Positions 1,669 to 19,962 of a DNA stretch of 25,631 bases are shown here, piece by piece; the stretch's first letter is position 1, and the number at the start of each line of letters is the position of its first letter. Source of the DNA: Thamnocephalis sphaerospora (Eukaryota > Zoopagomycota > Zoopagomycetes > Zoopagales > Sigmoideomycetaceae); the NCBI GenBank assembly GCA_003614735.1, contig KZ992625.1, positions 1 to 25,631 of the forward strand, read 5' to 3'. Position numbers and translations under genes: made by a program. The notes under the pieces were generated by a model, which saw only the letters and a program-made list of their open reading frames with translations, had not been told where the DNA came from and did not search any database.

Positions 1669-4600
1669 CTATTTGCGCCAGTACTGCGCCCATTTGTGAA
1701 TTGTTTCGATAACCTGAGGGAAGAGAGCGCTAACACTTTCGTTGATCAAGCCTTGGAAGTGATGAATGGCCTCCTCCTCCGACAGATCGAGACGAAACTT
1801 TTCCTGCACCTATCTCACCAACAGACACGGCAGCAACCACAGCAAGCGTGCAAACCAGCTTAGCATCAAGACGGGTCAGCACGGCAGCAAGCGCAGGCCT
1901 ACCTTCATCACCGCCTTGTCCGGCTCTACCTGAATGTCTGGAATACCAGCGTTTACCATAAGCGCAAACAGATTCAGAATAAGGTTGGCAGACTTGCGTA
2001 GAATGCTAAATGCAATAAAGCAGTACGCTTTAAACTGCTTATAGTGCTCCGACGATGCACCGCCCATGGCATCCACCATTTCACGCGCCAGCTTCATTGG
2101 CGGCGGAAATGGCTTGGGATCGCGACCGAGAATAAAGCCGAAATCAATGTGGAAAAGGCGGCCTATGTGTACGGCATTAGTATTTGCCATTGAATCGCCC
2201 GCGCCATCGGCCTACCATCAGTGGTGAGCATCAGGTTATCCAGGTGACGATCACCCACGCCCAGTAGATAGGTTATCACACAGTAGCCCGCTATCAAGCA
2301 ACCAAATTAGCAAAGTTTCGTGTAGCGACAATTGCCACGACGTACGCTACGTACCACAGCTTTTGACGTATGTGTCCATGACCTGCGGATGCACACCATA
2401 AGTGTTTGTTGATTCTGAATGGCTATTGTGCTTGCGCAAGTAGTTGAGTAAACTGTTTTCATTCTCGGCCAGAATGGTAGCCAACGGAACAGAGTCGACG
2501 AATTGTACCAAACCTGAAAGATGGTAAGAGCGCGTGCACATGTACGCACAGTTAGCGCAGGTGTAGAAGCGTCCTGGAATGTATCACACGCACCAGCATT
2601 AGTGCCCGTGGCCAGCACACGATAGGGCGTTAGCTTGAGATCAAGGTTTTCCTTGCGTAGCAGTTTGTCCATCAACATGATCATCTGAATCACCAGCTGG
2701 TCCTGCCTGCCATCAGATTGCGAGTGAGCAACGGCAAGCAGGCGGTCATTGATGGCCACATACCGAAGGTCATCGCCGCACTTGTATATAGCCTGGTACT
2801 CGGAGCCACCGGCGCACGAGAATGCAATGCGCAATGGCTGCAGGCTGCTCTTAAATATGGACGACTTTTCTGTGGCGGCGACAAGTCGGTGCGCCGTTCA
2901 GCGACAAATACGATAGCCACTTGTCAGTGACCAGCACTGGATCGGTGCTCACGTCCGTATTTCGATCACGCACCAGGTAGTACGCCGTTGATGCGCACCC
3001 GCGGATCTAGCGGCAGCAGAATCTCATCAAAAGAGCGTAGCTTGGTCTTGGGATCGGAAATATAGGCGCGCAGGCGCTCAATCTTTTTCGGGCGCGGATC
3101 CTTGCTAAGCTGCTGATCGCGCGCAATGCTGGCAAAGCGCGCAAGCAGCTCTCTTTGAGCACGAAACATGTTGTAATGCGCTGGGTTGATCTTTTTCTGC
3201 AGTACCACTTTGCGTATCAGCAATCAGGCGATCATGATGAGCATACACTACTACTGCACCTACCGTAGCGCGCATAAACACGGTAATGACTTGTGCAAAT
3301 AGCTTGCTGTTTTGTGCGCTCTCGTGTTCAATCAGCAGGTACCTGCCATGCATATCAGCGCAGATACAGTTAGAGCCTATCCCAGCGACAACGTACCAGT
3401 ACAAGTGGTTGCCCAGCACCACATTGCGTAGCCCGCGCTTGATGAGAAACTCGGCCAGCTTAGAGTCGCGCTGCGGCTGACTCTGTTCAGTCATTCCCTC
3501 AAATTTAAGCGCCTGCACTAGCTGAAGCAAGTAGAGCAGCAGTTCCTGCACGTCGCCATAGCATTAGTAGGTAACAAGTAGTGCGCCATGGCTTTGCCAA
3601 AATGGCACAAGCTACTTGCCTCGTCGCCCGCCTCGGCAATCCGCTTGACTGCGTAAGCGCGCACATGCTTGTTTTGAAACCCTTCGCCAAGCAGCTCAAG
3701 CGCGTCGTCAATGTTGACCGGAGACCAGTCGTTCAACAGCTCCACGGCTTGACGCGTCTCGATGGGATCCGTCCAGACCACGCATTTGAGAAACTTGGTG
3801 AGCACCTTGGATGGAATGTGCGTGAGTATGCTACAAAAGTGGCATAGACAGCAAACTACCGTGACAACATACCCTTTTGTCGCGCGACAGGTAGAAGCGA
3901 AACTTCCAAAGCAAGTCCTTTTCTTGCGAAGTCAACTGCTGTGACGGCGGATAATGGATGATGGCCTATGGTGCCTACGGTAAGCCGACGTTTACCTCTT
4001 TTTCCACACGCGGGCCTACATTTAGCTGATCACGCGCCGTTGCCTCTGGCTTCAGATCGCGATCAAGTGGTTCATTTCGGTGGCTGCGCACAAGACGGCT
4101 GTGCTTTGCCTCTACAATGTTTACCGCATCCAGCTCTGGGTCCAGCAGAGACAGGTGCAAGGGCAGAAGCGAACTTGCCAGCACAGGCTTTCCTGGCTCA
4201 TCCGTCTACCGGATCAATTAGCGCGCTGGCAGACGGTGCATACCCACGCACACATACTCACGCACCTGTTCATCACCGTATACCAGGGGAAAGTCAAACT
4301 TTTGCAGATCAATGTACAAAAACATCTTGCTAGAGCTGGCCGTCACTTCCTACCATCGTCTGCCTGCATTAGGCGCGTCCGCAAATGCTAGCTGTCCACC
4401 AGCACTACATACTCGGTTGATCCGCTCAATCTCACGGAAAGCCAGCTTGTCCAGCCAGTCCACGCGTGGTATCTCGCCCTCCTCGTGCCGCTTCACCATC
4501 TAAGCCCATAGACCATTGCCAAATGGTCAGCCATTGTCCAGCTGTGCTGTTCGCCTGTTCTAGGTAACGTGCTTACCTTTTCTAGATGGTCCATTGCATC

Positions 4601-5263
4601 ATGCTGCGGTGACTTTGACGGGGTCTTGACGAGGTCTGGCTTGGCATCCTGCCAAAGAAGCAGCTTCTGTCGCCCACTGCGCAGCACGCTATGCTTGGTG
4701 AACAACGGAAAAGCCGTGCTGGCGGCAACACGCGTGTTCTGTGGTCCACAAATCTCCCACACGGACAGAGCTAGCCACGCATCGGCGGGCAGCTCGCGAT
4801 AGCTGTGTGGCAGTACGATCCATTCATTCCAGCTAGCATGGGCCAGTAGAGCGTCAGCCGATGCAACGCCCAGTGCTGACACTCATGCGCCGCACACGTA
4901 CGCCCAACGTGTCTTGAACGACTTGTACGCGGTACGCATCAGCGGCGAAAGTTCGCGGCTTCCGCTAAACAGCTGGCAGCTGACATAGAGTTCCTGCAAA
5001 CTATGGACGTTACATGAGTCGCTTGCACCCACGCGTGCTGTGAACTCCAGACTACCGCACCTTTCGCTCGATGCATAGGGGCTAGTGTCGTGTGCTTGAC
5101 CCTGAAAGTGCTCCAGCGACGAGCTGCCCAGCAACGTCAGGAACATGCATGCCATCAACTGTGCGCGTCTCTGTGCTCACATGCGCACACGAAGCGGCTG
5201 GTCAATGTCTCGCGTAAAGCAAAAGGAAAAGTCCTTGAAGCCGGATGAGCCGCCAAACTCCAT
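1669..5263 (-). CDS. VPS34: Class III phosphatidylinositol 3-kinase VPS34
   Basis: It makes PI3P from phosphatidylinositol on endosomes and autophagic membranes, in complex with Vps15 and Atg6/Beclin. I place 17 exons: 5263-5181, 5123-4902, 4832-4577, 4499-4413, 4349-4266, 4205-4020, 3965-3873, 3805-3620, 3545-3397, 3342-3264, 3196-2974, 2869-2764, 2706-2594, 2513-2355, 2290-2216, 2162-1903, 1809-1669. They total 2502 nt (833 residues; family about 875-890). The N-terminal C2 domain ends near residue 230. A helical domain follows ('[14 protein letters not shown]', '[15 protein letters not shown]'). The kinase domain carries GVGDRHLDN (Asp689, His691, Asn694) and HIDFG (Asp707). The protein ends in the lipid-binding FAQYWRK-type tail (here WAQYWRK). 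The start is the first ATG, with the N-terminal strand [10 protein letters not shown] aligned to family members. Intron 3546-3619 has a GC donor. It is divergent from TCP1. Confidence 0.97.
3546..3619 (-). other. GC-AG intron in VPS34
   Basis: The exon ends GAC GAG and the intron starts GCAAGT. It contains a textbook TACTAAT branch site and ends in GTGCAG. Only this junction gives the conserved helical-domain run '[15 protein letters not shown]'. The nearby GT (4 nt further in) shifts the frame and leads to no usable acceptor. Confidence 0.9.
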
Positions 5264-18734: not shown

Positions 18735-18758
18735 GGTGGCATTGGCATGCGGCTCAGT

Positions 18759-19962
18759 CTACAACCGATCAATCACCGACTGCAGCTGGTCGGCCGGGTA
18801 GATGTGGAAGCCAAACGCCTCCGACACTGTCGCCATTTCTACGTTTGTCTTGTTTAGCTTCTCTTCCATGACCTGCTTGAGCACGCGCAGCGCCAACATT
18901 TCTCCCTCAGCCAGCGTCAGCTCCTATCGTGCCGTACCCAGTAGTGGTTAGCGAGTGCGGAAAACTACATTGTGTGTGCATGCGCTGTAACTTGCCTTGC
19001 GGAAATGCTCCTGCAGCTCCGTCTGCGCACCCTCGGAACCACTGCCAATGGCCTTGGCATCATAGCGAATATAAGTGCCCGACGGATCAGCGTGATATCT
19101 ATTTGGCCGACATGCGCACGCGTTAGCAAAGTTCAGCGCCCAGAGCAGACTGTGGCAGTAAGCGCGCCAATTTCCGCAATGGTACGTACAGCTGCGGACC
19201 GTTCTCATCAAAGCCGGCGATTAATAGAGCAACGCCAAACGGACGGCTCTACAAATAACGCGGCAAAAGTCAGTAAATCTTCACGCACCGCAGGCTCAGC
19301 GGAAGCCAACCCTAGCTACAGTCATTCTACTCACCATGATGCGCTCCTCGCTATCATTGTCGCCAAACCGCAGGGCCAGATCGCACACCGACTGCGTCAC
19401 GCTCTCAACCTTGATCGGCTCGTCGTAGATAAAGCGGTGGTTCTGCCATCAAGCCACGCATTGCAAGCCTGCATCAGCACGTTATCCATGCCACACCCAT
19501 GTGCCAACCGGCGCAAGTGCTATGCGACCAAATGTCCAATGCCACGCTCTCCACAATCGACCACGCACCTGCGACGACACACGTGCGTGCTCGATGATGA
19601 TGCGACTATCGCCTGTCAGGCCCGACATGGCACAGCCCAGATGACGATCAATCTCCTGGATCTTCTCGATCGACTCTGGCTCCATGAGTGGCGACGGAAT
19701 GCGCTTCTCTACCACCAGCACCACGCCCTCCTTGGTGGTCACGCCAATGGCCGTCGAGCCTAGCTGCGGATGACGGCCGTCCCAGTAGGTCAGCATTGCC
19801 AATGTCCAGCCAGAAGCACTATGTCTGTGCACCGGCCATGTCATTCAACGCCACGCAAGGACGCACCTTGATGGCCTCGATCGCATACTCGACCTGGAAG
19901 AGACGGCCTTCGGGCGAGAAGGTGTTGACACCGCGGTCGTACTCTGAGCGCGTTAGAAACAT
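18759..19962 (-). CDS. PUP2: 20S proteasome subunit alpha5
   Basis: A structural alpha-ring subunit of the 20S proteasome, without catalytic activity. Six exons: 19962-19867, 19763-19569, 19442-19335, 19248-19190, 19098-18996, 18923-18759. They total 726 nt (241 residues, exactly the usual length). The N-terminal alpha signature [20 protein letters not shown] is intact. It is followed by [30 protein letters not shown]-like [27 protein letters not shown] and the C-terminal [16 protein letters not shown] and SRPFGVALL identify alpha5 rather than another alpha subunit. Intron 5 has a GC donor. I looked for the yeast proteasome-promoter element GGTGGCAAA upstream of the start and did not find it. 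Confidence 0.97.
18924..18995 (-). other. GC-AG intron in proteasome alpha5 gene
   Basis: The exon ends CGC AAG, the intron starts GCAAGT, has a CTAAC branch site, and ends CGATAG before GAGCTGACG. It gives [22 protein letters not shown], matching the family. The nearby GT is out of frame. Confidence 0.9.

Follow-up and report, generated by a model that had tools for sequence, protein, structure and literature searches.

GC-AG introns in five neighbouring genes

The stretch of DNA analysed here as a whole, hereafter the window (25,631 nucleotides; contig KZ992625.1, C201 in our numbering), comes from Thamnocephalis sphaerospora, a fungus of Zoopagales, and contains five genes with introns that begin with GC rather than GT and end with AG. 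The original prediction, made from the letters alone, listed six such introns among 64, and we verified in the sequence their coordinates, strands, GC starts, AG ends and the G at position -1, together with the donor hexamers, five GCAAGT and one GCAGGT. The VPS34 gene (1669..5263, minus strand, 18 exons in our model) carries one GC-AG intron at 3546..3619 (donor GAG|GCAAGT, branch CTAAT), and the gene for a Sut1-like GPH transporter (8305..10902, minus strand, model uncertain in places) carries one at 9864..9994 (CTG|GCAAGT). Two lie in the CLC chloride/proton exchanger gene (11657..15076, plus strand, its end placed by eye at the stop codon), at 14411..14481 (TAG|GCAGGT, branch CTGAC) and 14590..14660 (TGG|GCAAGT, branch CTAAC). 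The KEX2 (kexin) gene (15314..18478, plus strand, exact start unsettled) has one at 17650..17724 (CTG|GCAAGT, branch CTAAC), and the proteasome alpha5 gene (18759..19962, minus strand, delimited by our model and homology) one at 18924..18995 (AAG|GCAAGT, branch CTAAC). A recognisable branch site had been claimed for all six; it is clear by eye in five and weak in the 131-nucleotide intron of the Sut1-like gene.

All six introns rest on sequence plus homology, TIGR01301 serving for the Sut1-like gene. The statement that only the GC junction keeps frame and conserved residues stands for the two taken together and falls for frame alone: frame-keeping GT alternatives occur near five of the six introns (at most 24 nucleotides from the donor and at most 30 from the acceptor), so that conserved residues, and not frame alone, decide for GC. 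The GC junctions align without a gap to a solved type 3 PI3K (VPS34), to solved alpha5 subunits, to kexin 1ot5 (KEX2) and, for both CLC junctions, to a solved H+/Cl- exchanger 3, where the next gap falls about 10 residues downstream of the second junction. For the Sut1-like gene, TIGR01301 scored 138 bits with the GC junction versus 116.6 with the GT parse of our own gene finder, a gain of 21, and the match spanned 51-218 instead of 51-165. Among four public relatives compared, two Syncephalis proteins included, the first CLC junction is free of gaps in all four and the second in three, P0123 of Syncephalis fuscata being without 11 residues just after it. Nearby GT donors were ruled out as the true sites, since they alter the frame or add residues. 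The donors are not of the U12 type, for which ATATCC is an example of the consensus (PMC3033335), a comparison that concerns donors only, U12 small nuclear RNA (snRNA) not having been searched.

Gene finders that demand GT had been expected to miscall these genes, and the public models largely bear this out. We compared three public T. sphaerospora proteins, 96-97% identical to ours, and found differences at three of the four junctions: the alpha5 model P0002 retains nine intron-coded residues, and the CLC model P0121 has inserted residues at its first GC junction and intron-coded residues at its second. The VPS34 model P0241 agrees with ours at the GC junction and differs at two places away from it. 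Annotation-based counts may therefore understate GC-AG introns. According to PMC6784888, the T. sphaerospora genome is among those of mycoparasites sequenced as co-assemblies of amplified single-cell libraries, and was annotated with the Joint Genome Institute (JGI) pipeline; "intron" and "splic" occur zero times in the main text of that paper.

Two further features concern the host genes. CLC and KEX2 are arranged head to tail, only a very short stretch (15076-15313) apart, and our gene finder fuses them where homology separates them. The Sut1-like gene includes a run of AGT trinucleotide repeats (about 9380-9417), modelled as a leucine run, which is perhaps intronic or mis-modelled.

Frequency of GC-AG introns in the genome

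Gene finding covered 228.8 kb, made up of the window, 20 stretches of 10 kb and the U1 locus, and used a gene finder of our own, trained with GT donors strongly enforced and then run with the donor dinucleotide freed. Three GC introns were kept even under the enforced training (about 12 nats against GC). With all 16 donor dinucleotides made equal, 566 introns were called, 408 with GT and 33 with GC, the next being AC with 16; with fixed priors of 0.7 for GT and 0.02 for each of the others, there were 507 GT and 27 GC introns and 32 spread over 14 decoy dinucleotides (2.3 each). Re-estimation gave 521 GT, 33 GC and 8 others among 562 introns. In this last run the stretches other than the window and the U1 locus hold 486 introns, of which 28 start with GC (5.8%) and 22 carry a core motif, defined as a GCAAGT, GCAAGC or GCAGGT donor (4.5%, confidence interval (CI) 3.0-6.8%; p = 1 × 10−8 against 1.009%). 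The GC introns outside the window are spread over 17 of 74 genes with introns. For comparison, Table 1 of PMC7072748 gives GC-AG shares of 1.009% in fungi, 0.983% in animals and 1.488% in plants. As far as gene models predicted from sequence can tell, about 5% of T. sphaerospora introns appear to start with GC, several times the usual fungal share.

Within the window our gene finder called 5 GC introns among 69 (CI 3.1-15.9%), or six with the Sut1-like intron, which it missed. The earlier total of 64 introns is plausible, some of our 69 being doubtful. The claim that GC-AG introns are unusually frequent is thus sound, and a share near one percent does not describe the 20 stretches (22-28 of 486), but the window's 6 of 64 (9.4%) overstates the average, at about twice the share in the sample (4.5-5.8%).

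The GC calls stand apart from other non-GT calls in two respects. With the 16 dinucleotides equal a priori, GCAAGT was used as a donor at 19 of 160 occurrences, versus 9 of 907 for the 14 other non-GT NNAAGT sequences together, and blocking the site costs at least 2 nats for 22 of 33 GC introns versus 2 of 8 other non-GT introns. We also searched against Pfam eight gene-finder proteins, chosen as conserved-looking, which hold 9 of the 22 core GC junctions. Seven of the eight matched a family, and five of the nine junctions lie inside the match (Mog1, PALP, Metallophos, Aminotran_5 and ELFV_dehydrog_N). Of the remaining junctions, one directly precedes an ELFV_dehydrog_N match, one directly follows Got1, a third is apart from a histone-fold match and the fourth is in the unmatched protein. 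The junctions in PP5 and in the cysteine desulfurase NFS1 align without a gap to solved structures, the model stretch upstream of the NFS1 junction not aligning. When restricted to GT, the gene finder split the PP5 and NFS1 genes in two each, and at six other GC junctions it kept one gene, with residues dropped or changed.

Genome-wide searches covered the assembly of 14,455,036 bases in 594 contigs. We counted the intron-like pattern GG[N]AAGT-CTAAC-YAG against a reversed-pattern control, a donor with several acceptors being counted repeatedly. GGCAAGT gave 236 matches (control 22), GGTAAGT 118 (control 29) and GGAAAGT 14 (control 13). With a CTGAC branch, C and T combined gave 294 matches (control 47), and the 94 distinct donors among the matches listed split 47:47. 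Where -1 was not G, 383 matches (control 164) were found, with 22 C to about 66 T among the matches listed, and a scrambled branch, CATAC, gave 112 matches (control 50).

Donor context and pairing with U1

The remainder of the donor is nearer to the U1 consensus in GC than in GT introns. GC donors (n = 33) have -1G in 88%, +3A in 88%, +4A in 76%, +5G in 97% and +6T in 85%, versus 71%, 63%, 35%, 90% and 59% in GT donors (n = 521). The dependence on context is steep, GC and GT standing at 18:20 where the site reads G|GYAAGT and at 15:494 elsewhere (Fisher p = 9 × 10−15). This supports, beyond the window too, the proposal that a near-perfect remainder of the U1 site makes GC tolerable. The accompanying remark that GT donors are looser is likewise supported, with +4A in 35% and +6T in 59%, and both of the loose donors it cited, GTAATC and GTAGCT, occur in our models.

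The RNAs that read the donor look ordinary. The 5' end of U1 is canonical in the donor-pairing region (AUACUUACCUG), and so is the U6 box (ACAGAGA). A U1 copy with a changed 5' end was not found, a single canonical match emerging from the 41 of 163 candidates that were scored; on this basis we reject a variant U1 as the cause, although a very divergent copy may exist. Predicted pairing energies with U1 were similar in the two classes, with medians of -6.3 kcal/mol for GC donors (n = 27) and -6.8 kcal/mol for GT donors (n = 514; p = 0.23). Substituting T at +2 in these GC sites would bring them to -11.0 kcal/mol, a value attained by 7.8% of GT donors.

The base composition of unselected sequence provides a second yardstick. 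G+C is 53-60% over the 20 sampled stretches and 57% in the window, and GCA:GTA is 3232:1295 in intergenic sequence and 1009:413 in introns (2.4-2.5:1), and 2.7 on the intron antisense strand. Against this yardstick, C at +2 of perfect sites does not exceed the level expected with no selection, standing at 18:20 in the gene-finder sample and at about 1.8:1 or 1:1 in the pattern counts. The original prediction also allowed that the lineage favours GC donors; this part is not demonstrated, GCA already exceeding GTA by about 2.5:1 in the non-coding sequence of T. sphaerospora.

Explanation of the GC donors

We consider it probable that these are, as predicted from their sequence, ordinary U2-type GC-AG introns read by the canonical U1, and that position +2 is nearly neutral in donors that otherwise match U1 perfectly. 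What counts for the spliceosome would be how stable the whole duplex between U1 and the 5' splice site is. When -1G, +3A, +4A, +5G and +6T are all paired, the duplex would have stability to spare and T or C at +2 would be nearly equivalent; when one of those pairs is missing, T at +2 would be needed in nearly all cases. At perfect sites, T-to-C changes at +2 could then accumulate by drift, with C:T approaching its neutral value, yielding about 5% GC-AG introns. The similar pairing energies of GC and GT donors, and a C:T at or below the neutral ratio, suggest that spare pairing leaves +2 nearly neutral. We infer that drift rather than selection supplied the C, and that the GC sites are spliced in vivo. 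The degree to which this has gone in T. sphaerospora would be the unusual part.

Several observations weigh against this account. The energy test uses the 27 core-motif GC donors, and this filter accounts for part of the equality with GT. The neutral ratio itself varies, GCAA:GTAA being 3.0 in intergenic sequence, 4.0 on the intron sense strand and 2.3 on the antisense strand. For the pattern counts, the scrambled-branch background in the gene-finder sample was 1.17 for C versus 0.45 for T per 225.6 kb (about 75 and 29 genome-wide), and because the GGCAAGT background exceeds that of GGTAAGT, the ratio of 236:118 overstates C:T and about 1.8 is left. The GC excess is about 2:1 with CTAAC and about 1:1 with CTGAC among the matches listed (p = 0.004), a split that counts against a donor-only neutral model because such a model does not predict it; in the gene-finder sample, branch strength did not differ between GC and GT introns (p = 0.13). 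Finally, the gain is below 2 nats for 11 of the 33 GC introns called, the homology-confirmed KEX2 intron among them, and the GC and GT sets both come from a single gene finder of our own.

An alternative reading is that over-stable U1 pairing is selected against: a full GT match would bind U1 too tightly and delay the hand-over to U6, and C at +2 would be retained as a built-in weakness. Perfect G|GTAAGT sites are indeed scarce among GT donors, with 20 observed versus 43.4 expected by independence in the window and 20 stretches, and GC outnumbers GT in the CTAAC-conditioned count. GT donor positions are antagonistic in general, however, -1G to +4A and +4A to +6T; such antagonism between donor positions is a known form of compensation in other species. 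Moreover, no favour for C is needed given the non-coding GCA:GTA of 2.4-2.5:1 and GCAA:GTAA of 3-4:1, and GC and GT are even with the CTGAC branch among the matches listed. We therefore regard this reading as unlikely, and its stronger form, in which perfect GT is actively avoided and GC-AG introns are a tuned donor class coupled to branch-site strength rather than a tolerated defect, as similarly improbable.

Alternatively, +2 may be read less strictly in this lineage because a splicing factor (U1-C, LUC7, Prp8 or Prp28) has changed or METTL16 has been lost. The weak preference for +4A (35%) and the lack of a METTL16-family match point in this direction, as the two are linked in Saccharomycotina (PMC10581693). 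The link described there concerns +4 and not +2, however, and the METTL16 result is weak evidence, PF05971 having had no match genome-wide in an exon-by-exon search of an assembly that may be incomplete. U1-C was not found with the short Pfam model PF06220, whose two matches were other zinc-finger proteins; LUC7 is present as one gene, and U1 and U6 are canonical. A changed factor thus seems doubtful as the cause, no more credible to us than selection against over-stable pairing.

An artefact of sequencing, amplification or modelling is very improbable: the assembly does derive from amplified single-cell libraries (PMC6784888) and the gene models are home-made, but errors would not favour donors that match at -1 and from +3 to +6, would not produce C while sparing A (GGAAAGT stays at its control level) and would not yield the genome-wide excess of GGCAAGT pattern matches over the control, and homologues require the tested junctions in VPS34, alpha5, CLC, KEX2, the Sut1-like gene, PP5 and NFS1. 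Sequencing error in particular is ruled out by the context specificity, GA not being raised.

Comparison with known systems

The U2-type GC-AG introns of fungi, animals and plants combine, as here, a GC donor and an AG end with a donor that is otherwise near the U1 consensus; T. sphaerospora differs in its share of about 5% and in GC rivalling GT at perfect sites. No report of a GC-AG share for Zoopagomycota was found among the matches listed in open-licence literature.

Shares well above 1% (here 22-28 of 486) are also met in algae, PMC3033335 giving 39.6% in Aureococcus anophagefferens, 22.2% in Micromonas pusilla and 7.7% in Chlorella sp. According to the same source, the U1 5' end of Aureococcus and Micromonas reads AUACUUACCUG, as in T. 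sphaerospora, and the cause of their many GC donors was called an enigma. Their genomic G+C is 69.5 and 65.9%, at least 65% in both, whereas the sampled stretches of this fungus stay below that level. The context rule is not reported for these algae in the portion of PMC3033335 available to us. A single non-canonical donor class has likewise risen in particular lineages in the case of the GA-AG introns of Eurytemora affinis and Oikopleura dioica, for which PMC7072748 mentions a proposed variant U1; T. sphaerospora differs in its one U1 match, which is canonical, and in GA, which stays at the control level.

With a predicted GC-AG share of about 5% and U1 and U6 boxes of the ordinary kind, this fungus offers a compact test case for why some genomes accumulate GC donors. 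The context rule yields a number that can be tested, as C:T at +2 of perfect sites should near the ratio of unselected sequence.

Additional observations

By eye, the two PF06220 matches look like ZMAT2/SNU23 (C46:16406-16498) and like ZMAT5 (C451:5422-5517), the U11/U12-20K protein with a U1-like finger and a CCCH finger. The presence of such a gene would point to a minor spliceosome in T. sphaerospora.

We also noticed by eye two pairs of identical intron-like sequences. One consists of inverted copies at C386:3317-3373 (plus strand) and C386:12138-12194 (minus strand), which could be an amplification chimaera. The other consists of direct copies 990 bases apart, at C130:11331-11398 and C130:12321-12388, which could reflect a tandem duplication.

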